This document shows positions 14,627 through 34,991 of a stretch of 64,000 nt of DNA, piece by piece. A program made the position numbers and the translations under genes. How positions within the stretch are numbered: position 1 is the stretch's first letter; every line of letters starts with the position of its first letter. This DNA comes from Betaproteobacteria bacterium (GTDB taxonomy: Bacteria; Pseudomonadota; Gammaproteobacteria; Burkholderiales; Rhodocyclaceae): contig JAHRYN010000002.1 in NCBI GenBank assembly GCA_020621405.1, forward strand, positions 609,676-673,675. Reading direction: 5' to 3'. Below the pieces are notes generated by a model. It was not told where the DNA came from, ran no database searches, and was given only the letters and a program-made list of their open reading frames with translations.

Positions 14627-14721
14627 CATGCCTCAACACTCACGCCGTTTGCTCGTTCCGGCCAGTACGTGCCGAACAAGTGCTGAGGCAAAATCCCGCT
14701 TACGCTGAACGAAGGATGCTC

Positions 14722-17097: not shown

Positions 17098-17161
17098 CGA
17101 TACCGGCCGTCGGATGTCTCATGCGACGACCGGCCAGCCTTTATCGCAGCGTGCGACCTTT

Positions 17162-18400
17162 TCAGCCGGCGGACGCTGCGCCTTCGACCAGCTGAGCCGA
17201 GGCCGGCTCGCCGCTGGCGACCAGAGGACGCATGCGATCGAAGGCCTCGACGATGCGGTCGATCTGCTCGAAGCTGTGCGCGGCGCTGACGCTCACCCGC
17301 ACAAGTGCCTGCCCGCCCGGGCTGGCCGGCGGCAGCACCAGATTCACGTAGACGCCGTGTTCGATCAGCGCATTCCAGAACGCCACGCCTTCCTGTGGCG
17401 AACCCAGCGTGACGGCGACCACCGGGCCCAGTTGCGGCCCCAGCGAATAGCCGAGCGCTGCCAGACCGCTGTAGAGGCGGCCGGCGTTGTCCCACAGGCG
17501 CTGGCGCAGTTCCGGACGCGCCTGCATCACCTTCAGCGCGGCCCGCACCGAGGCGATCGACGACGGCGAGGATGAGGCAGTGAAAATGTAGGGGCGGCTG
17601 GCGTAGCGCAGCAGATCCAGTTCCGGATGCTGGCTCACGGCGAAGCCGCCGATGGCGCCCAGACTCTTGCTGAACGTGCCCACGATCATGTCCACGTCGG
17701 CCTCGACGCCCGCAGCTTCCGCCAGTCCGCGGCCATGCTCGCCGAGCACACCGACCGAGTGGGCTTCGTCCACCATCAGGAAGCCGCCAAGACGGCGCTT
17801 GACGTCGACGATGTCGGCCAGCGGTGCCTGGTCACCCAGCATGCTGTAGATGCCTTCGACCACGATCAGCGTGTCGCGCGCGCGGTCGCCCAACCTGCGC
17901 AGGCGCTTTTCCATGTCGGCCGCGTCGTTGTGGCGGAAGCGGATCACCTGGCTGCCGCCCATGCGGCAGGCGTCGTAGATGCTCGCATGGCAGTCGGCAT
18001 CGAGCAGCACGATGTCTTCCGGACCGGCCAGGGTACCTATGGTGCCCAGATTGGCCAGGTAGCCGGTGGAGAACACCATGGCCGAACGGCGGCCGAAGAA
18101 TTCGGCCAGTTCCGCCTCCAGCGCCCAGTGGCTGCCGTAGGTGCCGTTGGCCATGCGCGACCCGGTGGTACCGGTGCCCTCCTCCTCCAGCGCATGACGC
18201 GCGGCGGCGATGCAGTCCGGATCGAAGGTCAGGCCAAGGTAGTTGTTGGTGCCGGCCAGCACCACGCGGCGATCGCCGACGCGGCCTTCAGTCGGCGAAT
18301 AGATCTGGTCGATGCGCGTTCCGAACGGACTCTTCTGCTTGTCCTGGATCAGCGCGGCCCTGTCCTGCGCCAGCTTGCTGAATTTGTCGAACAGCGTCAT
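17162..18400 (-). CDS. spt: Serine palmitoyltransferase (alpha-oxoamine synthase)
   Basis: PLP enzyme condensing serine with an acyl thioester to 3-oxosphinganine, the first step of sphingolipid synthesis. The 412-residue protein shows NNYLGL, HASIYDA with His138 stacking on PLP, VDEAHSVGVLG (Asp211, His214) and the PLP lysine K245 in GTFSKSLGAIGGF. KBL and BioF are close relatives. The adjacent ACP, acyl-ACP synthetase, CerR-like reductase and GNAT-like ceramide synthase support Spt over those. It overlaps the ACP gene by four bases, so the acyl donor is probably that ACP. Confidence 0.88.
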   Translation of the reverse strand: MTLFDKFSKLAQDRAALIQDKQKSPFGTRIDQIYSPTEGRVGDRRVVLAGTNNYLGLTFDPDCIAAARHALEEEGTGTTGSRMANGTYGSHWALEAELAEFFGRRSAMVFSTGYLANLGTIGTLAGPEDIVLLDADCHASIYDACRMGGSQVIRFRHNDAADMEKRLRRLGDRARDTLIVVEGIYSMLGDQAPLADIVDVKRRLGGFLMVDEAHSVGVLGEHGRGLAEAAGVEADVDMIVGTFSKSLGAIGGFAVSQHPELDLLRYASRPYIFTASSSPSSIASVRAALKVMQARPELRQRLWDNAGRLYSGLAALGYSLGPQLGPVVAVTLGSPQEGVAFWNALIEHGVYVNLVLPPASPGGQALVRVSVSAAHSFEQIDRIVEAFDRMRPLVASGEPASAQLVEGAASAG

Positions 18401-18648
18401 TCGCCCGCCTCCAGCAACCCGCAGATCGCCTGCGCCAGCTGCGCCGGGGTGCGCACCTCGGCCAGCACGTTGAGTGGAACGGAGATGTCGAACTCGTCCT
18501 CGATCTCCATCAGCATGTTCATCACCTCGATGGAGTCGAGGCCGAGTTCCTGGACCAGATCCACGTCCGGGTGGATCGCTGCCTTATCCCGCACCAGCCG
18601 GCCGAGATGGACGAAAAGCCGTTGCAGAACCTGTTCTTGCGATGTCAT
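18397..18648 (-). CDS. Acyl carrier protein of the sphingolipid locus
   Basis: An 83-residue acidic carrier with the phosphopantetheine attachment site LGLDSIE, Ser39. It differs from housekeeping AcpP in sequence and is embedded between the reductase and spt, as the specialised ACP is in known bacterial ceramide loci such as that of Caulobacter. It probably receives a fatty acid from the acyl-ACP synthetase at 19622 and hands it to Spt. The stop overlaps the spt start. Confidence 0.92.
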   Translation of the reverse strand: MTSQEQVLQRLFVHLGRLVRDKAAIHPDVDLVQELGLDSIEVMNMLMEIEDEFDISVPLNVLAEVRTPAQLAQAICGLLEAGE

Positions 18649-18690
18649 CGATGAGGGACTCTTGTGTTTTCGCCAGCCTGCTGCGCCCGG

Positions 18691-19608
18691 CTAGAACCGT
18701 CTCTCCTGCAGCGCTTGCGCCAGCTGGAGTCGCGGCGTCCAGTCCATGACGCGTTCGAGCGCGGAATTATTGCACGACCAGTCCGGATGCCGAAGCTCGC
18801 GCAGCTTGACCGGTGTCAGCATCGGCGCACCTCCGAACAGGCGGCTCAATGCCAGATTGATGTGGGCAACGGCCGTCAGCAGGCCCGGCGGAATCACGAC
18901 CCGGCGTACCGGCCCGCGCCTGGCCTGCTCCGCAGCAGCCCCGATCGCCAGCCAGTCGTATCCGCCCGGCCGGCCGTCATGCAATTCGAACACACCGGAC
19001 AGCGGCTCGGACGCCGCCAGCCAGCAGGTCACCGCGGCGGCAAGATCGTCGACATGGATGAAGCTGACCCGGCCCGACGCACTGCCGGGGATGAACAGCC
19101 AGCCGCGCAGCAGCCATTCGAACAGCGGACGCAGTTCGCGGTCGCCCGGCCCATAGACCGCGGTCGGGCGGAACACGGTCAGCGCCATGTCACCGGCGGC
19201 TTCGGCCACGACGCGCTCAGCCTCGCGCTTGGAAGCCGCATACCAGGACAGTTCGGGATGCCGCGCCGCCAGCGACGAAATCAGCAGAAAACGGCCGCAC
19301 TGCCCGCCAGCGCGGGCGGCTTCGACCAGACGCCGGCTGCCATCGACATTGGTGCGGACGAAGGACTCGGCGCTGGCACCGCGTACCGCCCCGGCACAGT
19401 GGACGACAGCATCGGCGCCCGCCACCAGGGCAGCAAGCGCTGCATCGTCCTCAAGCGAACCGGGTATCCACTCGACGCCGTCAACCGGTTCGCGCGGACG
19501 CCGGCTGAGCGCACGCACACGGTAGCCTTGACCAAGCAGATGACGGAGGAAGACACCACCGATGAAGCCGGTGGCACCGGTCAGCGCGATCGTCCTCACC
19601 GGACGCAC
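18691..19608 (-). CDS. cerR: NAD(P)-dependent epimerase/dehydratase family reductase, CerR-like
   Basis: Extended SDR of 305 residues with GATGFIGG at 11-18 and the catalytic YAASK (Tyr123, Lys127). In the Caulobacter ceramide pathway the SDR CerR reduces the keto group of the (acylated) long-chain base. Position between acyl-ACP synthetase and ACP/spt supports the same role here. Substrate order is inferred, not visible. The start is a GTG at 19608 (another GTG at 19599), 13 bases after the upstream stop. Confidence 0.82.
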   Translation of the reverse strand: MRPVRTIALTGATGFIGGVFLRHLLGQGYRVRALSRRPREPVDGVEWIPGSLEDDAALAALVAGADAVVHCAGAVRGASAESFVRTNVDGSRRLVEAARAGGQCGRFLLISSLAARHPELSWYAASKREAERVVAEAAGDMALTVFRPTAVYGPGDRELRPLFEWLLRGWLFIPGSASGRVSFIHVDDLAAAVTCWLAASEPLSGVFELHDGRPGGYDWLAIGAAAEQARRGPVRRVVIPPGLLTAVAHINLALSRLFGGAPMLTPVKLRELRHPDWSCNNSALERVMDWTPRLQLAQALQERRF

Positions 19609-19621
19609 GACGGCATGAGAT

Positions 19622-21367
19622 CTAGCGGGCCGCGGCGGCCAGTTTCATCGTATCGCCGGCAGCCTGCCACTTCAGGAAGCGCTGACAGGCCTCGGCGCGC
19701 GAGCGCTTGCCGGACGACGTGCGCGGCAACGAATGCAGCGGCACCAGCTGCACCCAGCAGCGGACGCCGACATCGCTGAAGATCAGCTTGGCCAGACGAT
19801 CGGTCAGGCTTTCGCGCTGTTCCGGATCGGTCAGCCTGCACTCGACCTGCACCACCACCTGCGGATCGGGATCGCCAGGCACCAGGAAGGCGATCGCGTC
19901 GCCGGTGCGGACTTCCGGCTGGCGCTCGGCCAGATGTTCGAGATCCTCGGGCCAGATGTTGCGGCCGTGCACGATGATCAGGTCCTTGCGCCGTCCGGTG
20001 ATGAACAGTTCGCCATTGCGCAGGTAGCCCAGATCGCCGGTATCGAGCCAGCCATTCTTGTCGAGCACTTCGCCGGTCGTGACCGGATCACCGAAATAGC
20101 CGGACATCACGCTCGGCCCGCGCACCTTGACGCGGCCGATCTCGCCTTCCGGCAGCTTCCGGTCATCATCGTCAAGAATGACGAGTTCATGCCCAGGCAG
20201 CACGTGACCACAGTTGACGAAGGTGCTCGCAGCCTCGTAGCTGTCACTGCACGGGACCGCGCGCCCGTGGCGCTCGAGTTCGAGGCGGTCGACCCGATCG
20301 ATCTGCACGCCCGAACCCTGACGCGGAAAGCTGACCGCCAGTGCGGCTTCCGCCAGCCCGTAGGACGGCAGGAAGGCACGCCGGTCGAAACCGGCCGGTG
20401 CCATCAGGTCAGCGAACTGCTGCAGGATGCCCGGACGAACCGGCTCTGCGCCGACACCGGCAACGCGCCAGCAGGACAGGTCGAGCGACTCGACGTCATC
20501 GGAGCGCGCACGGCGCGCGCTCAGGTCATAGCCGAACGGCGGTGCGAACGAGATGGTGCCGCGGTTCTCGCTGATCAGGCGCAGCCATTGCCGCGGTCGC
20601 ATCGCGAAATCGTGGGTTCCCAGGTAGTCCACCGACAGCTGCGACACCATGGGGCCGAGCACGAAACCGACAAGCCCCATGTCATGGTAGTAGGGCAGCC
20701 AGGAGACCGCGCGATCGCCGGGCCGGACCGCCAGTCCGGCCGGTCCGACAATGCCTTGCAGATTGGCCATGGCAGCCCGCTGGGTCACCATCACGCCACG
20801 CGGGAAACGGGTGCTGCCCGAGGTGTATTGCAGGTAAGCGAGTTCGTCCGGCTTCGACGGCTCGAGCACGACATCGGCTGCGGGACGCGCACGCAGTTCG
20901 TCGCACGAACCGAGGAAGGTGATCGGCAGCCCGCTCGCCGCGTCGGCAGCCAGCGGCAGCATCTCGGCCGGCGCCACGACGACGGCCGCACCACAGCTTT
21001 CAAGCAGTCCGCGCAGACGGGTGACGTAGATGTCGCGATTGCCGAGACCGGCCGGAACCGGCAGCGGAACCGGCACGAAACCGGCGTACTGGCAGCCATA
21101 GAAAATTTCCATGAATGCCGGCGAGGTGTTGGCGATCACCGCAACGCGGTCGCCACGCTTCAGGCCGAGCCCGTGCAGGCGCTTTGCCATCGCCAATGCC
21201 TGCAGCCGCAGTTCGGCGTACGGCACCGCCGCCGTCAGGCGATAGCGGCCGTCATAGAAATTGACGCCCGTCTGGCCCAGGGCTGCGTAATCGAGTGACT
21301 CGCTCAGGGTCGAAAAATCGGCCAGCCGCTGGGGCAGAGACTGGTTCGGGCTGGGCGTAACGATCAT
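19622..21367 (-). CDS. AMP-dependent acyl-ACP synthetase / fatty-acyl-AMP ligase
   Basis: A 581-residue ANL-family enzyme activating fatty acids as acyl adenylates and loading them on ACP. It shows the P-loop YTSGSTRFPRGVM, SYGLAEAALAVSF, the hinge region WLDTGDLGY and DLIIVHGRN, and a C-terminal KRSRAE; overall it is FAAL-like rather than a CoA ligase. The start MIVTPSPNQ is at 21367; the frame continues upstream without homology. It is the first gene of the cerR-acp-spt operon and probably supplies acyl-ACP to Spt. A TATAAC element lies about 10 bp upstream of AGAG, but no good -35 was found. Confidence 0.9.
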   Translation of the reverse strand: MIVTPSPNQSLPQRLADFSTLSESLDYAALGQTGVNFYDGRYRLTAAVPYAELRLQALAMAKRLHGLGLKRGDRVAVIANTSPAFMEIFYGCQYAGFVPVPLPVPAGLGNRDIYVTRLRGLLESCGAAVVVAPAEMLPLAADAASGLPITFLGSCDELRARPAADVVLEPSKPDELAYLQYTSGSTRFPRGVMVTQRAAMANLQGIVGPAGLAVRPGDRAVSWLPYYHDMGLVGFVLGPMVSQLSVDYLGTHDFAMRPRQWLRLISENRGTISFAPPFGYDLSARRARSDDVESLDLSCWRVAGVGAEPVRPGILQQFADLMAPAGFDRRAFLPSYGLAEAALAVSFPRQGSGVQIDRVDRLELERHGRAVPCSDSYEAASTFVNCGHVLPGHELVILDDDDRKLPEGEIGRVKVRGPSVMSGYFGDPVTTGEVLDKNGWLDTGDLGYLRNGELFITGRRKDLIIVHGRNIWPEDLEHLAERQPEVRTGDAIAFLVPGDPDPQVVVQVECRLTDPEQRESLTDRLAKLIFSDVGVRCWVQLVPLHSLPRTSSGKRSRAEACQRFLKWQAAGDTMKLAAAAR

Positions 21368-21458
21368 GTAGCACTCTGTAGTTATAAACGATTCAATTCC
21401 AAGCGTCCCGCGCGGGCATGACATCATTGTCGCATTGACGCACTTGCGACCGCTCGCA

Positions 21459-21890
21459 TCAAGTAGGCCAAGATCGTATCAGTTCATCACGTAACAAAAT
21501 GTTAACAGATTCGCCGGTGTCGTTGGCCTGATCAAGGCAGGGCGGGCCGGGCCACCCCGGATCGACGAATTCGCGGCCGGCAAAGGTACGCGCCGAACCG
21601 TAGCGCGGAATCACGTGGAAGTGAACGTCCGGGTCGACCATCATCAGCATCAGGTAATTGATCTTGTCATGATCGAACACCTGCTTCAGCACCCGTTCCA
21701 CGTCGGTGGTGACCACCTTGAGTTCGGCGAAGGCCGCCGCGCTGAGCATCGGCCAGGCGGTCACCGCCTCCTTCGCGATCAGCACCAGCGAGCCGAGCGT
21801 GACCTGCTTGGGACGGAGCAGCACGGACCAGCTGGTGTAGTCACGGACGACGCTTCCAGGCGCGCCGAACTTGCGCATGGTGGCCGACAA
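21459..21890 (-). CDS. HIT-family protein
   Basis: About 143 residues. The HIT motif appears as VHFHVIPRY: two histidines of the triad with Ile in the third position, as in several bacterial HIT proteins. Such proteins are nucleotide hydrolases or transferases. Start choice: a TTG at 21890 has GGAGG at a good distance; an ATG at 21878 and a GTG at 21914 are alternatives. It precedes the ceramide operon on the same strand by about 90 bp, but a role there is only suggested by position. Confidence 0.85.
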   Translation of the reverse strand: MSATMRKFGAPGSVVRDYTSWSVLLRPKQVTLGSLVLIAKEAVTAWPMLSAAAFAELKVVTTDVERVLKQVFDHDKINYLMLMMVDPDVHFHVIPRYGSARTFAGREFVDPGWPGPPCLDQANDTGESVNILLRDELIRSWPT

Positions 21891-22200
21891 CGCATCCTCC
21901 GGAACAGCCTGCACTGACGAATCTTTCTAAACACTTTGCAAGACATTGATCATACAGCAATATTTGAGTTTTCCACAGAGGGATTGGTCGAAACGGGCAT
22001 GACTGCCCGGGGAAACACCGCGACGGAACGCGGCAACGGCGCCGCACATTGCAGGGTGCAGGCCTGCGGTCGTTTCGGTGAAACGGCGGCAATCCGCCGG
22101 TATCCGTCGCCGGCCGGGCTTCGGAGGAGCCGACATCCGGTAACATGAGCGCTCCAAAAACAGTGCCGTCCCGCGGAAGTCCGAACGACCGCGAACAACC

Positions 22201-23364
22201 GTGCCGCCCGTGAATCCGCCACTTTCCGGCCCGCAGGGGCCCCTCGTCGTCAGACCGCTGCGCAACCGCGCCGACCTCGAAACATTCATACGCCTGCCTG
22301 GACGGCTGCACCGCGGCGATCCGCAGTGGATAGAACCGCTGCATCTGGAGCGCCGAATGCATCTTTCGAACAAGAATCCGGCGTTCGAACATGTGACCTG
22401 GCAGGGCTGGCTGGCGTGGTCCGGTACCGAACCGGTCGGCCGCATCAGCGCGCAGATCGACACCCTGCACCGCGAACGGCATGGCGCCGACACCGGGCAT
22501 TTCGGCATGCTGGACGCGGTGGATGACCCCGCCGTGTTCGCCGCGCTGATGTCTGCGGCGGAGGAGTGGCTGCAGCAGCGCGGCACGCACCGCATCACCG
22601 GGCCATTCAGCCTGACCATCAACGAGGAAAGCGGCCTGCTGGTGGACGGCTTCGACACGCCGCCCATGATGATGATGGGACACGTCGCCCCATACTACGG
22701 CCCCCGGCTGGAGGCGCTCGGCTACCGCGGCGCCAAGGATCTGCTGGCCTACTGGATGCGGCCGCCCGACATCAGCTACACGCCTGCCATGCAGCGGATG
22801 ATGGACCGCATGCGCGACCGGATACGGATACGGCAGCTTGACCAGAGCCGATTCGATGTCGAGCTGATGACGCTGCGCGACATCTTCAACGACGCGTGGG
22901 CGGAGAACTGGGGCTTCATTCCTTTCACCGAAGCGGAATTCCGCGAGCTCGGCAGCAATCTGAAGCTGCTGGTGCCGCCGGACATGATCATGATCGCCGA
23001 GGTCGACGGCGAACCGGCCGGTTTCATCGTCGGCATGCCCAATCTGAACGAGGCGGTCGCGCCGCTGCACGGCCGCCTGCTGCCTTTCGGCTGGCTGCGC
23101 CTGCTGTGGCGGCTCAAGGTGCGTCCGCCGCGCAGCGCCCGGGTACCGCTGATGGGCGTACGCCGGGGCAAGCATTTCAGCCGGCTGGGCACCGTCCTGG
23201 CGCTGCTGCTGACCGAGGCGATGAAGTTCGCGCTGCTCAGGAACAATATGGAATCGCTGGAGATGTCCTGGATACTCGAGGACAACTCGGGCATGCGCAA
23301 CATCCTCGAGCACATCAGCGCCAAGCCTTACAAACGCTATCGGGTCTATGAAAAACATGTCTGA
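22201..23364 (+). CDS. bcerS: GNAT-like bacterial ceramide synthase candidate
   Basis: A 387-residue cytoplasmic protein with a divided GNAT-like fold. Visible features are VVRPLRNRADLETFIRLP near the start, a central PPMMMMGHVAPYYGPRLEALG and a C-terminal NNMESLEMSWILEDN segment followed by YKRYRVYEK, the pattern of the long acyltransferase-like proteins identified as bCerS in Caulobacter. The role would be N-acylation of the sphingoid base. It starts with GTG (22201, or 22210) and is divergent from the HIT gene. The 286 bp between them hold no convincing promoter. It overlaps the next gene by 17 bp. Confidence 0.8.
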   Translation: MPPVNPPLSGPQGPLVVRPLRNRADLETFIRLPGRLHRGDPQWIEPLHLERRMHLSNKNPAFEHVTWQGWLAWSGTEPVGRISAQIDTLHRERHGADTGHFGMLDAVDDPAVFAALMSAAEEWLQQRGTHRITGPFSLTINEESGLLVDGFDTPPMMMMGHVAPYYGPRLEALGYRGAKDLLAYWMRPPDISYTPAMQRMMDRMRDRIRIRQLDQSRFDVELMTLRDIFNDAWAENWGFIPFTEAEFRELGSNLKLLVPPDMIMIAEVDGEPAGFIVGMPNLNEAVAPLHGRLLPFGWLRLLWRLKVRPPRSARVPLMGVRRGKHFSRLGTVLALLLTEAMKFALLRNNMESLEMSWILEDNSGMRNILEHISAKPYKRYRVYEKHV

Positions 23365-24175
23365 GCCGCTGCGCTGGGCCGCGGTGGTGCTGGCGGCAGA
23401 CCGTCGCGCCGGCGATGCGGTGGCCGCAGCCGCCGGCACGCCGTGCAAGGCGCTGGCGCCGGTCGGCGGCGTGCCGATGGTGAAACGCGTGCTGCAGGCA
23501 CTGGCTGACAGCGCCAGCGTCGACCGTATCACCCTGGTCGGCCCGCCGCGGGCATTGCTTCAGGGCGACCCCGACCTGAACGCCATGGTCAGCACCGGCG
23601 ACATCGGCTGGGTCGAGCCCGACAGCTCACCGAGCGCCAGCGCGCTGCGCGGCCTGAACGCTCAGGCGGCAGAACAGCCCGTGCTGCTGACCACGGCCGA
23701 TCACGCGCTGCTCAGCCCTGAGATCGTGGATCATTTCCTGCGCGAAGCCCGGGCCAGCGGCTGCGACTTCCTGGTCGGCATGGCCAGGCTGGAAACGGTG
23801 CAGGCCGGCTTTCCCGGCACGCGGCGCACGGCGACCCGCCTGCGCGGCGGCCCGTATTGCAGTTGCAATCTGTTTGCCTTCGCCACACCGGAAAGCCGCC
23901 GGTTGGCGCCGTTCTGGCGCCGCGTCGAGCAGCAGCGCAAGAAACCGTGGCGGGTGATCGCCGGCGCCTTCGGCTGGGTGGCCGTGCTGCGCTACCTGGC
24001 CGGTCGGCTGACGCTGGAGCAGGCGCTGGCGCGCCTGTCAGCGCGACTGGGCGTGCGCGTGGGTGCCGTGGTGCTGCCGTTTGCAGAAGCAGCGGTCGAT
24101 GTCGACACCCCGGCCGACCATGCACTGGTTGAAGCGGCGCTGGCCGCAAGGGCGGCCGCGTCGTGCCGGCCTTGA
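23348..24175 (+). CDS. MobA-like nucleotidyltransferase
   Basis: A 275-residue NTP-transferase-domain protein. The N-terminal LAADRRAGD and GTPCKALAPVGGVPM match the MobA/IspD-like nucleotide-binding loop, and TTADHALL contains the metal-binding aspartate. Members activate sugars, alcohols or cofactors with NTP; a head-group precursor is plausible here. It overlaps bcerS by 17 bp, so the two are translated together. It is convergent with the second nucleotidyltransferase, 14 bp apart. Confidence 0.85.
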   Translation: MKNMSEPLRWAAVVLAADRRAGDAVAAAAGTPCKALAPVGGVPMVKRVLQALADSASVDRITLVGPPRALLQGDPDLNAMVSTGDIGWVEPDSSPSASALRGLNAQAAEQPVLLTTADHALLSPEIVDHFLREARASGCDFLVGMARLETVQAGFPGTRRTATRLRGGPYCSCNLFAFATPESRRLAPFWRRVEQQRKKPWRVIAGAFGWVAVLRYLAGRLTLEQALARLSARLGVRVGAVVLPFAEAAVDVDTPADHALVEAALAARAAASCRP

Positions 24176-24189
24176 GGTCAACCCTGGGG

Positions 24190-24969
24190 TCAGCGCTGAA
24201 CCGCCCTGCTGTCCCATTCGCGCACCAGGACGCGCGCGACATCGAGGTCGGCCGGGAAGTCCAGCTCACCCCAGCCCAGGCCCTCGATCGACTGCACGAA
24301 CACCTGTCCGGTGCTGCCGGCGATTTCGTTGATCATGCTGAGGTACCAGCGCTTCAGCGCCTCCGGCGTGCGCATGGCCCGTTCCAGCGCGACGCGGAAC
24401 AGTTCGCCGCCTTCCGGGCGGAAGCACATCATGCCGATCGACTCGCCATCGACGCTGTCCAGCGGCAGCGTCTTGCCGACCTTGGTCAGCCGGTCACCCT
24501 CGACGCACACCTTCATGTCGTCGGCGTCGTAGAGGGCCTTGCAGTCGATGGCCAGCGTGATCGGCCGCGGTGGCGCCTCGAGCAGCCGCTGCAGCACCGG
24601 CAGGTCGAACAGCGTGTCACCGTTGAGAATGATGAAGGTGTCCACCATCGCCTGCCGCGCCATCCAGCAGCTGGCAAGGTTGTCCGCCACCTCGAAGAAG
24701 GGGTTGAACAGGGTGTGTATGGTGCCCGCACCGTAGCGGCGCTCCAGCACCTGCTCGACCTGGGCCGCGCCGTAACCGGTGACCACGGTGATGTGGTCGA
24801 TGCCGCCGGCCCGCAGGTTGTCGATCTGCCGCTCGAGGACCGTACGGCCATCGAGTTCGATCAGACATTTGGGACGATCGGCCGTAAAGGGCAGCAGGCG
24901 GCGCCCCTGGCCCGCACTCAGAATCAGCGCTCGCGTCGGCTGAAGATTCACGCTCGAAGAACTCAACAC
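24190..24969 (-). CDS. NTP transferase (phosphocholine/inositol-phosphate cytidylyltransferase-like)
   Basis: A 259-residue nucleotidyltransferase with the loop SAGQGRRLLPFTADRPKCL, ILNGDTLFD carrying the metal-binding aspartate, and a late FPADLDVAR motif. The closest general type is the LicC-like sugar-phosphate or polyol-phosphate cytidylyltransferase group. With the CDP-alcohol phosphotransferase at 28195 it could provide a CDP-activated head group; the alcohol is unknown. A GTG start at 24969 is well supported by TAGGAGAGG. Divergent from the LptF-type gene. Confidence 0.85.
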   Translation of the reverse strand: MLSSSSVNLQPTRALILSAGQGRRLLPFTADRPKCLIELDGRTVLERQIDNLRAGGIDHITVVTGYGAAQVEQVLERRYGAGTIHTLFNPFFEVADNLASCWMARQAMVDTFIILNGDTLFDLPVLQRLLEAPPRPITLAIDCKALYDADDMKVCVEGDRLTKVGKTLPLDSVDGESIGMMCFRPEGGELFRVALERAMRTPEALKRWYLSMINEIAGSTGQVFVQSIEGLGWGELDFPADLDVARVLVREWDSRAVQR

Positions 24970-25103
24970 ACCTCTCCTAATGGTTTACGCGGTACGGGTC
25001 ACATCCTGATGCAGTCGCAGACGTTGCCGTTCTGTGCGACTCGCGCCCGCCCGCGGCGGAGAAGTGTCGCACACATGACGCCACACACGGAGCGTGCCGT
25101 TTC

Positions 25104-26159
25104 GTGCATCTGATCGATCGCTACATCGTCAGGGAAGTGTGCCGGCCGCTGTTCGCGCTGCTGGGCGTACTGACCGTCATCTTCGCCAGCTATACCGCGG
25201 CCCGCTACCTGAACGAAGCGGCCAGCGGCGTCATCGGCCTCGGCACCGTGCTGAAGATCACCGGATACCGGGTGCTGATCGCGCTTGAGGTACTCGCTCC
25301 GGTCGGCCTCTACGTTTCGGTGGTGATAGGACTCGGGCGCATGCACCACGACCAGGAAATGGTGGTCATCGCGGCCGCGGGCATCAATCCGCTGCGCACC
25401 TACTACGCCGTCGGCCTGCTGGCGCTGCCGGTCGCGGTGGCGGTCGGACTGCTGTCGATGTACGGACGGCCCTGGGCCTACACCGAGTCCTACGCGCTGG
25501 AAGCGCAGAAGACGAACGATCTGGACCTGACCCGGCTGCAGGCCGAGCGCTTCAATACCAACGCCGACACCGGACGGATGATTCTGGCGAAGCGGGTCGA
25601 TGCCGCCGACGGCAAGCTGCGCGACGTGCTGATCTACAGCGACGGCAAGAAGCGCAATCACCTGATCCGCGCCCGCGAAGCCTGGCTGTCCGACCCCGAT
25701 CCGCTGCATCCGGTACTGCAGCTGCGCGACGGCATCAGCTATTCGCTGCACCAGAGCGGCACGCACGACCGAACGCTGCGCTTCCGCGAGCTGACGATAG
25801 AACTCAAGCCGGTGCAGTCCGCGGTCGAATACCGGCGCAAGGCGGCACCCACCACCGAGCTGGCCGTCTCGTCGGCGCTGCCGGACCGGGCGGAGCTGCA
25901 ATGGAGGCTGTCGCGCGGACCGACTGCGCTGCTGCTGGCCCTGCTCGCCGTACCGCTGGCCCATACACCGCCGCGACGCGGCCGCTTCGCCAGGCTGCTG
26001 CCGGTGACCGCGGTATTCGCGGTGATCTACTACGCAGGCGGCATGTTCAAGAACCTGATCGAGAAGGGCAACCTGCCGATGTGGCCCGGCCTGTGGCTGA
26101 TCCCGCTGGTGATGGCGGTGGCGCTTTTCATGCTGATGCGCCGGAGCGCGAAACCCTGA
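25104..26159 (+). CDS. LptF-type (YjgP/YjgQ) permease
   Basis: A 351-residue inner-membrane protein with the LptF/LptG layout: one cytoplasmic start MHLIDRYIVREV, three helices, a periplasmic beta-jellyroll (about 130-270), and three C-terminal helices. These permeases extract lipids from the inner membrane with the LptB2 ATPase and pass them to a periplasmic bridge. The partner overlaps by one base. No lptB, pepA or lptA gene is near, so this is a stand-alone pair inside a sphingolipid locus. It may still be the main LPS pair. GTG start. Confidence 0.85.
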   Translation: MHLIDRYIVREVCRPLFALLGVLTVIFASYTAARYLNEAASGVIGLGTVLKITGYRVLIALEVLAPVGLYVSVVIGLGRMHHDQEMVVIAAAGINPLRTYYAVGLLALPVAVAVGLLSMYGRPWAYTESYALEAQKTNDLDLTRLQAERFNTNADTGRMILAKRVDAADGKLRDVLIYSDGKKRNHLIRAREAWLSDPDPLHPVLQLRDGISYSLHQSGTHDRTLRFRELTIELKPVQSAVEYRRKAAPTTELAVSSALPDRAELQWRLSRGPTALLLALLAVPLAHTPPRRGRFARLLPVTAVFAVIYYAGGMFKNLIEKGNLPMWPGLWLIPLVMAVALFMLMRRSAKP

Positions 26160-27238
26160 TGCGCACGATAGACCGCTACATCGCCGCCACCGTCGGCATC
26201 GGTTTCCTCGCTGCGGCAGCGATGCTGCTGCCGCTGTTCGGCTTCCTCGACCTGATCGCCGAACTCGACGACGTCGGCGAGGGCAGCTACAAGCTGTCGC
26301 AGGCACTGCTGGTGACCATGATGCTGCTGCCGCGGCGGGCAGTGGAGCTGGGCCCCTTCATCGCACTGCTCGGCGGCATCGTCGGGATGGGCCAGCTGTC
26401 GGTAAACAGCGAACTGACCGCGATGCGGGCGGCCGGACTGACCGTCACCCGCATCGCCATGCCGGCGCTGGGTGCCGGACTGGCCCTGGCACTGGGGCTC
26501 GCGGCGGCCGACCAGTACGTCGTGTCCCCGATGCAGCAGAAGGCGCTGCAGCAGCGCAAGCAGGCCGTTTCGGGCATGCAGGACCAGCTGAGCGGAAACG
26601 TGCTGTGGGTGCGCACCGACCGGCAGATCCTGCGCGTCGGCGAACTGCGGGCGGGGCGGGTGCCGGTCGACGTCGAGGTATTCACCTTCGCCGAGGACGA
26701 CAGCCTGCAGGAATACATCCACGCCGCCCGGGCCGACGTCAGCAAGAGCGGCGGCTGGCTGCTGTACGACGTGCAGATCAAGCACTGGACCGACAAGACG
26801 ACGATCGCCGAGCACATGGACCAGATGAACTGGCAGTCCATCATCTCGGCCAAGCGCCTGGACGAACTGGTACTGCCGACGACCAGCCTGTCGCCGCGTC
26901 AGCTCTACCGCTACGTCAATGACCTGCACCGCATGGGTCAGCCGGCGGCGGCCTACGAGGTCGCGCTGTGGCAGAAGATCGGCGCCCCCATCCTGACCGC
27001 CGCGATGATCCTGCTGGCGGTGCCGTTCACGCTGAGCAGCGGACGCGACCTCGCGCTCGGCGGCCGGCTCATCCTCGGCGCGGCATCCGGCCTGGCGGTG
27101 TATCTGGCCAATCAGGTCGCTGGCGCCACGGCGGTGCTGTTCGAACTGAGCCCGCCGCTGGCCGGCGTGCTGCCGGCGACGGTCATGCTCGTGCTCACCC
27201 TGCTACTGCTGCGCCGCCCCGACCTCAGGCCCGGTTAG
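26159..27238 (+). CDS. LptG-type (YjgP/YjgQ) permease
   Basis: The second permease, 359 residues, with the start MRTIDRYIAATVGIGFL, three N-terminal helices, a periplasmic jellyroll (about 130-265) and three C-terminal helices. MELGPFIALLGGIVG-type and NSELTAMRAAG motifs are those of LptF/LptG near the LptB coupling helix. The ATG overlaps the stop of the first permease (TGATG), so stoichiometric expression is likely. Its 3' end overlaps tail to tail by 36 bp with the metallophosphoesterase gene. Confidence 0.86.
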   Translation: MRTIDRYIAATVGIGFLAAAAMLLPLFGFLDLIAELDDVGEGSYKLSQALLVTMMLLPRRAVELGPFIALLGGIVGMGQLSVNSELTAMRAAGLTVTRIAMPALGAGLALALGLAAADQYVVSPMQQKALQQRKQAVSGMQDQLSGNVLWVRTDRQILRVGELRAGRVPVDVEVFTFAEDDSLQEYIHAARADVSKSGGWLLYDVQIKHWTDKTTIAEHMDQMNWQSIISAKRLDELVLPTTSLSPRQLYRYVNDLHRMGQPAAAYEVALWQKIGAPILTAAMILLAVPFTLSSGRDLALGGRLILGAASGLAVYLANQVAGATAVLFELSPPLAGVLPATVMLVLTLLLLRRPDLRPG

Positions 27239-28135
27239 CACGACCGGCGCGTCGGCGGTCACCGATCCATCGGACCGGATCAGGCGCCGGTGCAGCGTGA
27301 TTGACCAGCCGGCCGCGAGCCGTTCGATGCGGTACAGGTTGTAGGCAGCCACCGTGGTTTCGTCGCCGCGGGCGACCGAGGCCGACGGCACACCGATTAC
27401 CGGCACGCGCCCGCCGGGTACCGGCAGCCAGTCCTCGCGCCGGCGGTGCACATGGCCATGCAGCACCAGCTCCACGCCCTGGCGCGCCAGCACCTGCCGC
27501 AGTTGCGGCGCGTCGGTCAGGCATTTGCGCCAGCTGGCGGCGCCCGGCTGCGGCGGATGGTGGATCAGCAGTACGCGGAAGGCGTCGCGGCTGGCGACCA
27601 GCAGCCGTTCCAGGCGGGTCTGCTGGGGCGCGCCCAGGCGGCCTGTGGCGAACGTAACGCCGGTCGGCACCGCCGTGCTGGTGCCGATCAGCGCCAGCGG
27701 ACCGCGCCGGCGCAGGTAGGGGAAGCCGCCCTCATCGTCCACGCCTTCCATGTACTCGCGCCACAGCCCTATCGTGCCGGACCAATGCTCGGGCCGATAC
27801 GTGTCGTGGTTGCCCGGCACCACGGACACCTGCTCCGGGCTGCCCAGTGCGCGCAGCCATGCCAGCGCCTGCCGGCATTCGTCGGAAGTGCCCAGCTGGG
27901 TGAGGTCGCCGGTGACGGCGATGTGGTCGGGTGCCTGGCTGTGAAGATCCTGCACCAGCAGCGCCAGCCGTTCGGGCAGATGCAGGTGGCGACGGCGCTT
28001 CTGCCAGGACAGGTATCCGGTCAGCCGCTTGTTCAGCAGCTGCTGCCAGCGGATGGTGTCCAGCCCGGTGAGATGGGGATCCGAGAGGTGCGCGAGGACA
28101 AAGGCAGACGGGGTGCGCTGTTCCGGTTGCTTCAT
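27203..28135 (-). CDS. Calcineurin-like metallophosphoesterase
   Basis: A 310-residue cytoplasmic phosphoesterase with the full metal-site set: LSDPHL, VTGDLTQ, VPGNHDTY and LHGHVHRR. The family includes LpxH, cAMP phosphodiesterases and lipid phosphatases. At 310 residues it is longer than LpxH. In this setting it may dephosphorylate a lipid head-group intermediate, but that is inference. The ATG at 28135 is close to the divergent CDP-alcohol phosphotransferase (59 bp between starts). Confidence 0.88.
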   Translation of the reverse strand: MKQPEQRTPSAFVLAHLSDPHLTGLDTIRWQQLLNKRLTGYLSWQKRRRHLHLPERLALLVQDLHSQAPDHIAVTGDLTQLGTSDECRQALAWLRALGSPEQVSVVPGNHDTYRPEHWSGTIGLWREYMEGVDDEGGFPYLRRRGPLALIGTSTAVPTGVTFATGRLGAPQQTRLERLLVASRDAFRVLLIHHPPQPGAASWRKCLTDAPQLRQVLARQGVELVLHGHVHRRREDWLPVPGGRVPVIGVPSASVARGDETTVAAYNLYRIERLAAGWSITLHRRLIRSDGSVTADAPVVLTGPEVGAAQQ

Positions 28136-28194
28136 GCGATGACTATACTACGCGGCCTTTCCGGCTGGCCCGATCACTTCGCAGGATCTTCAAC

Positions 28195-29379
28195 ATGACC
28201 ATAAATGTCCATCTGGTGGGCGATTGCGCGCTGCGCCTGTGGGGACTGACGCCGCGCCAGCGGCTCGAACGCCTGCTGCGCGGTTTCCCGGAGGCAAGGC
28301 TGGTCGATCAGGAGCAGCCGCTGCCCGCATCAGGCGAAGTGCTGCTGCTGCGCGCCGACTACGCCTACGACGAACGCGTGATGCGCGGCCTGATGAAGGC
28401 GACCGAGGTCGCGCTGCAGGACACCCGCGACGGCACCGTGGTCGCCGCGCGCGGCGATGCCGGCCGCTGGCACGGCTCGGCGCGGCTGGACGGCCCGGCC
28501 ATGGACGGTCTGGCGACGGTGTCGCCGGAAACGGTGGCCGAAGGGCTGCAGGCCAAGCTGCGCAAGTTCGACCGCCCCTGGGTTGCGCCGGTGCGCACGG
28601 ACAATCTGCAGCGGCTGGAAAAGGCGCTGTTCAGCGGCGCCTACAAGGGCGTCACCGACATCATCACGCGCTGCGTATGGCCGACGCCGGCGCGCTGGGC
28701 AACCCACCTGTGCATCCGTCTGGGCCTGAGCCCGAACGCGGTCACCGCCGGCAGCTATGTGTTCGCCATTCTGGCCGGCCTGTGGTTCTGGCAGGGCAAT
28801 TACGGTCCGGCGCTGCTGGCCGCATGGTTCATGACCTTCCTCGACACGGTCGATGGCAAGCTGGCGCGGGTCACGCTGACCTCAAGTCAGGTCGGCGACA
28901 TCCTCGACCACGCGCTGGACCTGATACATCCGCCGTTCTGGTACATCGCATGGGGCATCGGGCTGGGCGCATCCTGGCAGTCGGGACTGGCGCTGTGGGA
29001 CGTGCTGTGGGTGATCATCGGCGGCTACATCGCCGGCCGGCTGTGCGAAGGCGCCTTCAAGTTCGCCGCACCGTTCTCGATGTTCATCTGGCGGCCGTTC
29101 GACTCGGTCAACCGCCTGATCACGGCACGCCGTAACCCCAATCTGGTCATCCTCAGCCTGTCCTGGCTGGCTGGTCACGGCGACACCGGCCTGGTGCTGG
29201 TTGCCGCCTGGACCGCCATCTCCACGCTGGTGCTGCTGGTGCGTGCGCTGTGGGCCATCGCGCTGAGCAAGAGCGGGCACGAGATGCAGCCCTGGCTGAG
29301 CCGGGTCGACCCGCATGCGAAGGACAACCCGCCGCTGGTGCGCCTGTTCGCACCCGGCACCGGACCGGCCGATGTCTGA
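28195..29379 (+). CDS. CDP-alcohol phosphatidyltransferase family protein with N-terminal extension
   Basis: A 394-residue membrane enzyme. The CDP-alcohol phosphotransferase motif is complete: D217-x2-D220-G-x2-A-R-x8-G234-x3-D238-x3-D242, within about six helices (170-370). Such enzymes move an alcohol-phosphate from a CDP-alcohol to an acceptor lipid. The first 130 residues form a soluble domain resembling a degenerate nucleotidyltransferase (LWGLTPRQRLERLL), a fusion layout known from archaeal inositol-lipid enzymes. Here the acceptor or product could be ceramide-linked. A TATACT -10-like element lies at 28144-28149. Confidence 0.88.
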   Translation: MTINVHLVGDCALRLWGLTPRQRLERLLRGFPEARLVDQEQPLPASGEVLLLRADYAYDERVMRGLMKATEVALQDTRDGTVVAARGDAGRWHGSARLDGPAMDGLATVSPETVAEGLQAKLRKFDRPWVAPVRTDNLQRLEKALFSGAYKGVTDIITRCVWPTPARWATHLCIRLGLSPNAVTAGSYVFAILAGLWFWQGNYGPALLAAWFMTFLDTVDGKLARVTLTSSQVGDILDHALDLIHPPFWYIAWGIGLGASWQSGLALWDVLWVIIGGYIAGRLCEGAFKFAAPFSMFIWRPFDSVNRLITARRNPNLVILSLSWLAGHGDTGLVLVAAWTAISTLVLLVRALWAIALSKSGHEMQPWLSRVDPHAKDNPPLVRLFAPGTGPADV

Positions 29380-29388
29380 CGCCCGGCG

Positions 29389-30348
29389 ATGACGACTTCG
29401 CCGCCGACCGGCGCGCCTCCCGCGGTACTGGCCGAAATCGGGCTGGAATGCGGACAGCCGGTCGCGACCGAGCTGCATCTGCTGAGCGACCGGGTGCGCG
29501 CCCGCTTCGGCGGCGCAGTCGCGGCGGTGATGTTCTACGGTTCCTGCCTGCGCAGCGGCGATCCGGGCGAAGGACTGGTGGACCTGTACGTGCTGGTCGA
29601 CCGTTACGCCGACGCCTATGACAGCTTCGTGCTGCGCTCCGCCAACGCCTGCCTGCCGCCCAATGTATTCATGCTGCAGCTGCGCACCGACACCGGCCGC
29701 ACGCTGCAGGCCAAGTACGCCGTGCTGTCGCTGGCCGACTTCGAGGCCGGCACCGGCAGCTGGTTCCAGAGCTATGTCTGGGGACGCTTCGCCCAGCCGT
29801 CGCGGCTGGTCTACGCCCGTGACGACGGCGTGCGCAAACGTCTGCACGCGGCGCTCGCGCAGGCCGCACTGACGCTGCTGCGCGAAGCGCTGCCCTGCGT
29901 GGCGGACGACTTCGATGCGGAAACGATCTGGCGCACCGGCCTGGCGTTGAGCTACGGCACCGAAATGCGGCCGGAGGCGATCGACCGGCCGGCCCAGCTG
30001 GTGCAGCGGAACGCCGCCTACTTCAGCCGGCTGACCGCGGCGGCGGCCCCCGCCGTCCGCGGCATGCAGACACTTGCTGGCGGCAGTTACCGGAACACGC
30101 TGTCACCGGCGCAGCGCCAGCGCGGCCGGCATCGATGGACGCTGCGCCGGCTGCAGGGCCGGCCGCTGCAGGTGGCGCGGCTGATGAAGTCGGTGCTCAC
30201 CTTCGAGAACGGCATCGACTACCTCGCCTGGAAGCTGGAGCGGCATACCGGCCACCCGGTCGAGGTGACGCCGCGGCTGCGGCGGTATCCGCTGATTTTC
30301 GGCTGGCCGCTGCTGTGGCGGCTGCTGCGCCAGAAACGCCTGCGTTGA
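29389..30348 (+). CDS. Hypothetical protein with degenerate nucleotidyltransferase motif
   Basis: A 319-residue protein I cannot name. Residues 47-71 carry an NTase-like signature: VMFYGSCLR (Gly51, Ser52) and then VDLYVLVD, where the usual Asp-x-Asp is Asp65-x-Tyr67 with a further Asp71. The C-terminus is strongly basic and ends with a hydrophobic YPLIFGWPLLWRLL segment that may touch the membrane. It follows the CDP-alcohol phosphotransferase by nine bases and precedes the hydroxylase. A lipid-modifying role is likely from context; it could be a nucleotidyltransferase or kinase with an altered active site. Confidence 0.75.
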   Translation: MTTSPPTGAPPAVLAEIGLECGQPVATELHLLSDRVRARFGGAVAAVMFYGSCLRSGDPGEGLVDLYVLVDRYADAYDSFVLRSANACLPPNVFMLQLRTDTGRTLQAKYAVLSLADFEAGTGSWFQSYVWGRFAQPSRLVYARDDGVRKRLHAALAQAALTLLREALPCVADDFDAETIWRTGLALSYGTEMRPEAIDRPAQLVQRNAAYFSRLTAAAAPAVRGMQTLAGGSYRNTLSPAQRQRGRHRWTLRRLQGRPLQVARLMKSVLTFENGIDYLAWKLERHTGHPVEVTPRLRRYPLIFGWPLLWRLLRQKRLR

Positions 30349-30426
30349 CCGGCGCGCGGCCGGTGGCGAGAATGCACGCGGATTTTCCCGTGCCATCGAC
30401 CGGCGGCAAGCGACCGCCCACAAAAA

Positions 30427-31161
30427 ATGTCCCGCAAACCCAAAAAGCACAGGCCCAGCGTCGCCATCGGCCTGTGGATCATCAAGCGCCTGGAGCGCCT
30501 GATCCGGCGCTACTCGACGGTCGAGAACACGCCCTTCCTCGACAGCCGCCAGTTTCCCTGGGCGGAGGACCTGGAGGCGAACTGGCCGGTGATCCGGAAG
30601 GAACTGGAGCAGGTGCTCAAGGTGAAGGACCGCCTGCCCAGCTTCCAGGAAATTTCGAAGGACCAGGTCACGCTGACCCAGGACGACCGCTGGAAGACCT
30701 ACTTCATGTACGCCTACGGCTACCGGATGGAGGGCAACTGCCTGCGCTGTCCGGAAACCGAGCGGCTGGTGAAGGCGGTGCCGGGCATGTTCACCGCGTT
30801 CTTCTCGATCCTGGCGCCGGGCAAGCACATTCCGCTGCACCGCGGCCCGTACAACGGCCTGCTGCGGGCCCACCTCGGACTGATCGTGCCGGAACCGAAC
30901 ACCGCCTGCCGCATCGAGGTCGGTGGCGAGACCCGACACTGGGAAACCGGCAAGTGCATGGTGTTCGACGACACCTACAAGCATCAGGTGTGGAACGACA
31001 CCGACGGCACCCGCGTCGTGCTCTTCCTCGACGTGCGCCGCCCGCTGCGCTGGCCGGGCTCGCTGCTCAACCGCATCGTGCTGAAGCTGATCAGCTGGTC
31101 GCCCTTCATCCAGGACGCGCGCCGCAACCACCGTGCATGGGAGCGCGGCTTCGAGCGCTGA
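30427..31161 (+). CDS. LpxO-like aspartyl/asparaginyl beta-hydroxylase family dioxygenase
   Basis: A 244-residue Fe(II)/2-oxoglutarate dioxygenase of the AspH/LpxO family. The iron and 2-OG residues are in HIPLHRGPYNGLLRAHL and in DDTYKHQVWN followed by DVRRP. An N-terminal hydrophobic segment and a C-terminal amphipathic region suggest membrane association as in LpxO, which hydroxylates an acyl chain of lipid A. Next to a ceramide locus the substrate could instead be a ceramide acyl chain. Last gene of the rightward head-group block; the ABC gene at 31168 is convergent. Confidence 0.9.
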   Translation: MSRKPKKHRPSVAIGLWIIKRLERLIRRYSTVENTPFLDSRQFPWAEDLEANWPVIRKELEQVLKVKDRLPSFQEISKDQVTLTQDDRWKTYFMYAYGYRMEGNCLRCPETERLVKAVPGMFTAFFSILAPGKHIPLHRGPYNGLLRAHLGLIVPEPNTACRIEVGGETRHWETGKCMVFDDTYKHQVWNDTDGTRVVLFLDVRRPLRWPGSLLNRIVLKLISWSPFIQDARRNHRAWERGFER

Positions 31162-31167
31162 ACCGGC

Positions 31168-32877: not shown

Positions 32878-33149
32878 GTGCTTCGTTCGATACCGGCTTG
32901 TTTCGGAACTTCGGGTTGCAGACCTTGCCGGATGCGGCAGTCCGCGCGTCGCCTCGCGACGCATGGCCGAGCGCGCGCATCGTAGGGCTGGCGACACCTT
33001 TCCGCAAGGACGGGACGTTTGGCCCGCAGCGCCCTGCCTGCCCCTGCCGGGAGCGGCAGCGCGGCCGTTCACCACCCGGCTCCCACTACAATGCGGTCGG
33101 CGGCCGGCATGCGCCGCCAGCCCTCTTCCGGAGACCCTGCTTGCATCCG

Positions 33150-34607: not shown

Positions 34608-34991
34608 ATGCGCACCTCGGTCCTGCTGTTCCTGATCGTCGGCGGCTGCGCCGCTGCCACCCACTACTTCGTGACGCTGGGCGTGGATTTCGCCACCGGT
34701 ATCGATCCGGCATGGTCCAATCTGATCGGTTTCCTGTGCGCATTTCCGGTCAGCTATGCCGGCCACCGCCGCTGGTCGTTTGCCGGGACGCGGGCCAGCC
34801 ACCGCCAGGCGCTGCCGCGGCTGTTCGCCGTGTCCTGCACCGCCTTCGTCGGCAACCAGATCATGCTGGCCGCGCTGCTGCGCCTGACGCCGCTGCCGCT
34901 GTGGATCGCGCTCGGCATCGTGCTGGTGTTCGTCGCCATGAGCACCTTCATCCTCGGCCGCTACTGGGCATTCGCGCACCGGACGGCATGA
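34608..34991 (+). CDS. GtrA-family membrane protein (putative lipid-linked sugar flippase)
   Basis: A 127-residue, four-helix membrane protein of the GtrA family. Members are thought to flip undecaprenyl-phosphate-linked sugars across the inner membrane. ATHYFVTLGVDF, NLIGFLCAFPVSYAGHRRWSF and the C-terminal RYWAF are typical. It lies 2 bp after the GT2 gene and overlaps the YdjC-family deacetylase gene by four bases, so one transcript serves synthesis, deacetylation and flipping. Confidence 0.9.
   Translation: MRTSVLLFLIVGGCAAATHYFVTLGVDFATGIDPAWSNLIGFLCAFPVSYAGHRRWSFAGTRASHRQALPRLFAVSCTAFVGNQIMLAALLRLTPLPLWIALGIVLVFVAMSTFILGRYWAFAHRTA

Follow-up and report, generated by a model that had tools for sequence, protein, structure and literature searches.

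A horizontally gained sphingolipid gene island without the ceramide kinase gene cpgB in a member of the Rhodocyclaceae

In a stretch of 64,000 nucleotides (the window, below) from a Betaproteobacteria bacterium of the Rhodocyclaceae (contig JAHRYN010000002.1, positions 609,676 to 673,675) we describe a locus with a five-enzyme ceramide gene set and genes for head-group synthesis, transport and hydroxylation. The locus is of a known kind and not a new system. It occupies a segment of about 18.5 kb that is a horizontally gained island, and it has no counterpart of the ceramide kinase gene cpgB. We consider it likely that the island serves to make and export a phosphosphingolipid of the ceramide (di)phosphoglycerate (CPG/CPG2) type; the DgkA-type diacylglycerol kinase of the host may replace CpgB. 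Among the best matches of a literature search, mostly papers without subscription, none dealt with CpgB-less clusters, with an OlsC/LpxO-type sphingolipid hydroxylase or with plasmid-borne clusters of this kind. As far as that literature reaches, three elements are apparently new: the kinase-less variant, which recurs, the fusions of kinase and CpgC, which hint at the reaction of CpgC, and the putative hydroxylase.

Results

The host genome (3.8 Mb, 12 contigs) is given as 100% complete. The island extends approximately from 14627 to 33149 of the window and contains 16 genes, all of them open in the open reading frame (ORF) listing and the gene calls. At its ends lie an ELM1-type putative glycosyltransferase (left) and an ATP-binding cassette (ABC) exporter (right), both missing from the site in congeners. 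In two congeners (G706 and G642) only 260 and 280 bases separate the match to the exporter gene (12932-14626) from the match that begins near 33150, and the insert was therefore delimited to approximately 14.6 to 33.15 kb. From about 33150 onwards a globin gene is followed by the same genes in the congeners as in the window. The empty site was seen in two of five congeners; in G594 the contig ended, the single stretch from G676 fell short of the site, and the two stretches from G532 contained neither flank. A flank probe (11932-12786) had no match in the five congeners at E values up to 1e-60.

Among 199 genomes of the family, two gave a match to serine palmitoyltransferase (Spt) at E values up to 1e-90: this genome and a second one, whose match is interrupted by a stop. 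The five congeners drawn gave none. For 13 of the 14 island proteins compared, the nearest relatives belong to Azotobacter, Pseudomonas asuensis or Stutzerimonas; identity to these Pseudomonadaceae is 76-79% for Spt, 67-70% for the bCerS-family protein and 69-75% for the CpgD-like protein. Among the family matches of the island proteins there was no integrase, and a separate repeat search of the two ends gave short chance-like repeats only, at the left end. The island illustrates that a lineage can acquire a complete set of envelope-lipid genes at a single site.

Five ceramide enzyme types, as an earlier note on this DNA had proposed, are present as intact ORFs at 17162-23364, within 6.2 kb. 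The oxoamine synthase (spt, 17162-18400, minus strand) proved to be of the serine palmitoyltransferase type and not KBL/BioF. It scored 641.3 bits with NF047599, the NCBI serine palmitoyltransferase equivalog (cut-off 500), and stayed under the cut-offs of bioF (332.2 vs. 426.45), of two glycine C-acetyltransferase (KBL) models (318.6 vs. 460 and 282.2 vs. 493) and of the 5-aminolevulinate synthase (ALAS) models; none of the 12 other listed models was passed. It has a GTFSK motif, and among solved chains it is closest to serine palmitoyltransferases (2x8u, E 1.9e-126). The acpR-like acyl carrier protein (ACP) gene (18397-18648, minus strand) overlaps spt by 4 bases; its product is over the PF00550 cut-off, has a GLDSI motif and reaches no ACP equivalog cut-off. 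The cerR-like NAD(P)-dependent reductase (18691-19608, minus strand; PF01370 over cut-off, motifs GATGFIG and YAASK) holds the same position in syntenic loci and reaches no equivalog cut-off, so that its assignment is one of family and position. An aasR-like fatty acyl-AMP ligase/acyl-ACP synthetase is encoded at 19622-21367 (minus strand; NF006624, 806.9 bits against a cut-off of 600, scored from a longer start at 21427). An adjacent specialised ACP and acyl-ACP synthetase mark the Rhodobacterial ceramide gene set; in the window the predicted ACP is encoded next to spt and the predicted acyl-ACP synthetase two genes on.

The fifth protein (22201-23364, plus strand) is a GNAT N-acyltransferase of the bCerS family and a predicted ceramide (sphinganine N-acyl) synthase; PF00583 gave 21.8 bits, just above the cut-off of 20.7, and there was no NCBIfam match. 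The proposed kinship with bCerS was borne out by nearly full-length relatives and by the presence of Spt within the stretch taken in 47 of 98 relative loci, A. vinelandii among them. These loci comprised the best 80 of 587 relatives (from named genomes) and 18 other stretches; sampling went by similarity to bCerS, with chosen places, and was not random. The genera among the best 80 include Azotobacter, Pseudomonas, Stutzerimonas, Serratia, Erwinia, E. coli, Nitrosomonas and Nitrosospira. Within the class, 29 of 369 genomes, the host's own included, have a relative, seven of these at less than 30% identity; in the alignment the protein is 43-60% identical to 16 of the 18 other rows and 28-34% identical to two remote ones. 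Identity is 60-70% over nearly the full length in seven Pseudomonas, Azotobacter and Stutzerimonas loci (70% to Azotobacter beijerinckii) and 56% to a protein that an E. coli record annotates as yghO. Sphingolipids had been called rare in Betaproteobacteria. This holds for the family by the Spt count above, but many Nitrosomonas and Nitrosospira loci combine bCerS with head-group genes, and Nitrosomonas eutropha is a published betaproteobacterial case (PMC11324152, PMC9386255). Two genomes of the same order (L041 and L043) share 71-74% DNA identity with Nitrosomonas loci, over matches that add up to 10-13 kb, which makes the window betaproteobacterial in the classical sense.

According to PMC11324152, a 17-gene region of Caulobacter holds five ceramide genes, six genes for the CPG/CPG2 phosphoglycerate head groups and a second LptC/F/G set. 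Orthologues of the region are reported there in Nitrosomonas eutropha and Azotobacter vinelandii, the latter with all five ceramide proteins. By domain and order, 10 of the 11 Caulobacter biosynthetic genes have counterparts in the window, as do LptF2 and LptG2. Domain searches gave the genes at 23348-31161 the head-group, transport and hydroxylation functions that the earlier note had described. Its limits for the locus, 17162-31161, proved too narrow, the unit extending to the ELM1-type gene at 14716-17097 and the ABC exporter at 31168-32877. Its view that the genes do not reveal the final lipid was too pessimistic, as the cpgA, cpgC and cpgD counterparts point to a ceramide (di)phosphoglycerate, which is probably the product.

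The cpgA-like CDP-alcohol phosphotransferase (28195-29379, plus strand; CC_1159 counterpart) belongs to PF01066 and has an intact DxxDGxxARx8GxxxDxxxD motif; its model (predicted local distance difference test, pLDDT, 81) has the AF2299/PIP synthase fold (4o6n AF2299, E 1.6e-10). The cpgD-like putative cytidine triphosphate (CTP):phosphoglycerate cytidylyltransferase (24190-24951, minus strand; CC_1152 counterpart) was assigned by family and motifs and matches 1jyk, a CTP:phosphocholine cytidylyltransferase (E 4.6e-12), and 4jd0 (E 2.8e-7). Its Arg18, Lys28 and Asp112 fall in the motifs of R16, K26 and D112 of CpgD, as placed by motif and not by alignment; CpgD is reported to make CDP-glycerate (PMC12275187). 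An inositol head group, raised by weak IPCT/DIPPS matches, was set aside, CpgD itself having been compared with the same cytidylyltransferase family (PMC12275187). Two further counterparts are a CofC/MobA-like nucleotidyltransferase (CC_1153; 23348-24175, plus strand), which follows bCerS, is over the PF12804 cut-off and matches the F420 CofC model weakly (17.3 bits), and a calcineurin-like metallophosphoesterase (27203-28135, minus strand; PF00149, GNHD motif), equated with CC_1158 by domain and place.

The cpgC-like gene (29389-30348, plus strand) encodes a Tam41-type nucleotidyltransferase that scored 23.4 bits with PF09139, just below the cut-off of 24. The top five PDB matches of its model (mean pLDDT 90) are all Tam41 CDP-diacylglycerol (CDP-DAG) synthases. 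It was taken as the counterpart of CC_1161 because that protein is reported with a CDP-DAG synthase-type domain (PMC11324152), and because the gene follows the kinase gene in A. vinelandii as CC_1161 follows CC_1160. In seven loci of Nitrosomonas/Nitrosospira kinship (L043, L100, L106, L113, L114, L116 and L130) CpgB and CpgC form one ORF of 664-669 amino acids (aa), which supports consecutive action. Six of these are close kin in the CpgC tree; the seventh, Nitrosospira multiformis L130, has an unfused near relative (L108), and its fusion may be a sequencing matter. Together, the modelled Tam41-type fold and the fusions suggest that CpgC makes CDP-ceramide from ceramide-1-phosphate and CTP, a concrete and testable reaction for an enzyme whose mechanism is called unidentified in PMC12275187 and the preprint PMC13228409.

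The cpgA and cpgC genes are separated by only 9 bases (29380-29388), the place at which A. vinelandii (L062) has a gene for a 322-aa DAGK_cat kinase; the earlier note had overlooked this absence. CpgB itself had no match in the window, and a CpgB profile reached at best 2.4 bits there, compared to 404 (L062) and 446 (L041) for two controls that belong to the profile, and no DAGK_cat protein over cut-off was found in the whole genome. A weak DAGK_cat trace on contig C8 (23.3 bits, under cut-off) was rejected as a lipid kinase; the protein belongs to the ATP-NAD kinase family (PF01513, 50.8 bits, above the cut-off), and it gave 22.3 bits with the CpgB profile.

CpgB is missing in 9 of 49 CpgC-bearing loci (the window, L048, L053, L063, L092, L101, L124, L134 and L136). 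The 49 are the window and 48 others; 49 of the 98 loci were left out, the CpgC-like gene not lying in the stretch taken, and L138 was dropped before the counts as it comes from the same genome as L054. Several genomes are metagenome-assembled, and completeness is not given for the named-locus genomes, so absence counts for less there. Loci L045/L046 and L054 were rejected as CpgB-less, a CpgB-like gene lying just beyond the stretch first taken. On the CpgC tree, loss or gain of CpgB requires six changes, of which the starred branches alone force two. Five of the nine CpgB-less genomes (the host G000, G264, G521, G523 and G524) have no DAGK_cat protein over cut-off; the other four have one away from the cluster, which is not CpgB-like. 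The nine CpgB-less CpgC rows agree at 37 of the 42 positions conserved in more than 90% of 50 rows (the nine included), so CpgC has not simply decayed. Mutual exclusion of the phosphoesterase and CpgB was rejected, the phosphoesterase being present in 7 of 9 CpgB-less and 13 of 40 CpgB-bearing loci within the stretches taken. The hydroxylase described below is over-represented in CpgB-less loci (6/9 vs. 6/40), although six loci have both and an independent-pairs test had no power; as a kinase replacement it was rejected on chemistry.

The dgkA gene (9173-9550, plus strand; PF01219, 121.2 bits), a candidate source of ceramide-1-phosphate, lies outside the island. It occupies the same place in all five congeners (75-82% identity) and so was not brought by the island, which rules it out as an island gene. 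DgkA is present in 9 of 9 CpgB-less and 14 of 27 CpgB-bearing genomes (Fisher p = 0.014, ignoring kinship; the DgkA search covered 36 of the 49 loci). The E. coli diacylglycerol kinase of ceramide assays is, we presume, DgkA. In those assays it was used to convert ceramide to ceramide-1-phosphate in vitro (PMC4291487). DgkA is favoured because of its co-occurrence with CpgB-less clusters and this action on ceramide; that it supplies ceramide-1-phosphate here is a tentative proposal by analogy, to which we give slightly less than an even chance. Kinase-less clusters make it testable whether a housekeeping DgkA feeds a sphingolipid pathway.

The gene at 30427-31161 (plus strand) encodes an OlsC/LpxO-type putative lipid acyl 2-hydroxylase of the Asp/Asn-hydroxylase family (PF05118, 187 bits), matched by the OlsC model over residues 16-242 of 244. 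The only other PF05118 protein of the genome (L189, 9438-10340) is a true LpxO (509.5 bits, cut-off 500), and its gene adjoins one for a phosphoethanolamine-lipid A transferase; lipid A hydroxylation is thus already provided for. Its family and its place in a sphingolipid cluster suggest that the island enzyme most likely 2-hydroxylates the N-acyl chain. For Caulobacter, PMC11324152 ascribes this acyl hydroxylation to a DesA-type enzyme whose gene lies outside the cluster. Near the right ends of L060, L061 and L062 a second PF05118 gene stands just after the cluster's copy, on the opposite strand, with 46-48% identity to the window hydroxylase.

Two LptF/LptG-type permeases are encoded on the plus strand by lptF2 (25104-26159; TIGR04407, 300.3 bits, cut-off 230) and lptG2 (26159-27238; TIGR04408, 303.6 bits, cut-off 240). 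The genome has four such genes, and since the other two are on contig C4, the island genes are a real second pair. A second LptC (CC_1168) is described as missing in N. eutropha, A. vinelandii and P. luteola (PMC11324152). The ABC exporter (31168-32877, minus strand; PF00005/PF00664, scored from a longer start), a possible lipid flippase, gave 250.1 bits with the MsbA model, under its cut-off of 602; an ABC exporter adjoins spt in L059-L064. The ELM1/GtrOC1-type putative glycosyltransferase (14716-17097, plus strand; PF06258, 186 bits) has a large N-terminal region, and a counterpart in the same kind of cluster on the plasmid pBYT5-2 is annotated as an ELM1/GtrOC1 family putative glycosyltransferase. 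A HIT-family protein (21459-21878, minus strand; PF01230) adjoins the acyl-AMP ligase and recurs in 16 of the 98 loci, two of them from the same genome. Of the histidines usual in the HIT motif, the first is apparently an Asp in the window protein.

Clusters related to the island, as judged from annotation, are found on two conjugative plasmids, which points to a possible transfer route. The IncP plasmid pDCB2 of the betaproteobacterium Diaphorobacter sp. JS3051 (NZ_CP065408.1; L190, 1473-23624) has a divergent sphingolipid-like cluster with a pyridoxal phosphate enzyme, ACP, acyl-AMP ligase, two CDP-alcohol phosphotransferases, LptF/LptG, a diacylglycerol kinase family protein, a desaturase, a P450, a non-ribosomal peptide synthetase-like gene and a HIT family protein. 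On pBYT5-2 of Pseudomonas sp. BYT-5 (NZ_CP097491.1; L191, 5740-25125) a ceramide and head-group cluster is accompanied by a kinase, the ELM1/GtrOC1 glycosyltransferase and an Asp/Asn-hydroxylase-family gene.

The sole tRNA of the window lies 2.4 kb to the right of the island. ARAGORN calls it as tRNA-Arg (anticodon gcg) at 35569-35642 (minus strand), inside a YdjC-like ORF on the opposite strand (34988-35767), and either the tRNA or the ORF may be a miscall. The gene at 39313-39981 (plus strand) encodes a protein with a C-terminal PEP-CTERM sorting signal.

Discussion

In the pathway that we propose, AasR would charge AcpR with a fatty acid and Spt would join the acyl group to serine. CerR would then reduce the ketone and bCerS N-acylate the base, in either order, to give dihydroceramide. 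CpgD (24190-24951) would supply CDP-glycerate. The host DgkA (9173-9550) is the most likely candidate to phosphorylate ceramide to ceramide-1-phosphate in place of CpgB, after which CpgC (29389-30348, Tam41-type) would probably activate ceramide-1-phosphate with CTP and CpgA (28195-29379) would transfer phosphoglycerate. The phosphoesterase and the CofC-like enzyme may serve the second phosphoglycerate unit, and the OlsC/LpxO-type enzyme probably 2-hydroxylates the N-acyl chain. LptF2/LptG2 would carry the lipid outwards, perhaps aided by the ABC exporter. In Caulobacter, CPG2-type sphingolipids help cells survive without lipopolysaccharide (PMC12275187), and polymyxin presumably targets them (PMC11324152). 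For CpgB-less bacteria in general, we see a roughly even chance that the first step is different and has been switched several times, either to DgkA or to a direct reaction of CDP-glycerate with ceramide, and that an OlsC/LpxO-family hydroxylase was recruited in convergence with the DesA-type enzyme of Caulobacter.

The main rival explanation dispenses with a kinase: CpgA would move phosphoglycerate from CDP-glycerate directly to the ceramide hydroxyl, or CpgC would act on the hydroxyl, and ceramide-1-phosphate would be bypassed. Direct transfer would parallel the choline/ethanolamine phosphotransferases that act on diacylglycerol, to which CpgA has a weak sequence match (8gyw, E 2.6e-4). After Tam41, the folds nearest to CpgC are those of enzymes that nucleotidylate aminoglycoside hydroxyls, and CpgC keeps its conserved positions through the six tree changes in CpgB noted above. 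However, the first phosphoglycerate of Caulobacter is reported to need CpgB and not CpgA (PMC11324152), and CpgC most resembles CDP-DAG synthases, enzymes that require a phosphate, and is fused to the kinase in seven loci. We regard a kinase-free route as unlikely. A remote kinase encoded elsewhere in the genome, outside DAGK_cat and DAGK_prokar, could also replace CpgB, as the genome-wide kinase search covered these two families; we judge this quite improbable, the sole DAGK_cat trace being the ATP-NAD kinase family protein and no further gene being called on the island.

The head group, too, might be something other than phosphoglycerate, for example a sugar added by the ELM1/GtrOC1-type protein, with the cpg-like genes serving another alcohol. 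A putative glycosyltransferase does belong to the island, and the cytidylyltransferase family of the CpgD-like protein also includes phosphocholine and inositol-1-phosphate enzymes. Yet gene set and order are those of clusters assigned to CPG/CPG2, and the CpgA and CpgD counterparts are 63-75% identical to those of A. vinelandii and A. beijerinckii, which leaves a different head group with a low probability. Finally, the island might be silent or decaying, the missing kinase marking loss of the pathway, with plain ceramide as the product at most. One known step is indeed missing, but all 16 genes are open, CpgA has its full catalytic motif, CpgC keeps its conserved positions, and clusters of other lineages that are similar in other respects also lack the kinase, so that decay is very unlikely.

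Several observations weigh against a gained island that makes a CPG/CPG2-type lipid with the help of DgkA. The phosphoesterase is nearest to L048 (53%) and the ELM1 protein to L045 (64%); with such differing nearest relatives the island may be composite in origin. Its G+C content (67.5%) is close to that of the flanks (64.7 and 66.8%). A comparison of its two ends revealed no direct repeat longer than chance would give: the longest shared word is 9 bases, a length reached by 33.5% of 200 shuffles. The CC_ and Cpg names were assigned by gene order, domain and statements in the papers. The template modelling (TM) score between CpgC and Tam41 is about 0.5, and the match does not fix the substrate. 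The hydroxylase is under both equivalog cut-offs (OlsC NF052565, 281.2 vs. 450; LpxO NF033391, 137.8 vs. 500). The DgkA association is not independent of kinship, with only two supported independent pairs and no power; 13 of the 49 loci were outside the DgkA search, and DgkA is ancestral in the genus, with a role of its own. It is also an integral membrane enzyme. CpgB is reported to be soluble (PMC10331486).

Comparison with known systems

The Caulobacter crescentus cluster CC_1168-CC_1152 (PMC11324152; CpgB, PMC10331486; CpgD, PMC12275187) shares with the window, by domain and order, counterparts of aasR, cerR, acpR, spt and cerS, of CC_1161, CC_1159, CC_1158, CC_1153 and CC_1152, and of LptF2/LptG2. 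The window differs in having no CC_1160 (cpgB) and in the presence of the OlsC/LpxO-type hydroxylase, the ELM1-type protein and the ABC exporter. The aasR-acpR-spt/yghO locus of E. coli (BL21 in PMC9386255; L072) arranges its five ceramide genes as the window does and has an LptF/LptG-like pair nearby, but no cpg head-group genes within the stretch taken. Of 5426 complete E. coli genomes, 4006 match at least 80% of an 8-kb region made up of this locus and flanking sequence. In L072 and other Enterobacterales loci (among them L068, L070, L073, L075, L076, L078, L079 and L082) the LptF/LptG-like pair near the ceramide genes is 44-49% identical to that of the window, and cpg head-group genes were not found within the stretches taken.

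The Nitrosomonas/Nitrosospira clusters resemble the window in bCerS, the CC_1153-like gene, LptF/G, CpgA and CpgC. They differ in that cpgB is present, fused to cpgC in the seven loci named above, and in that the spt group is not within the stretches taken; a search of three of the genomes (G323, G472 and G511) gave no PF05118 protein. OlsC (ornithine lipid acyl 2-hydroxylase) and LpxO (lipid A 2-hydroxylase) are of the same PF05118 family as the window hydroxylase, which however is below the cut-offs of both and lies in a sphingolipid cluster, in a genome with a separate LpxO. The loci of Azotobacter vinelandii CA (L062) and of A. beijerinckii, Pseudomonas asuensis and Stutzerimonas kunmingensis (L059-L061) differ by cpgB between cpgA and cpgC, and the window phosphoesterase is unmatched within the stretches taken. 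They share its ceramide, CpgA/C/D, LptF/G and hydroxylase genes at 50-79% identity in almost the same order, and the A. vinelandii cluster has been assigned to CPG/CPG2 (PMC11324152).

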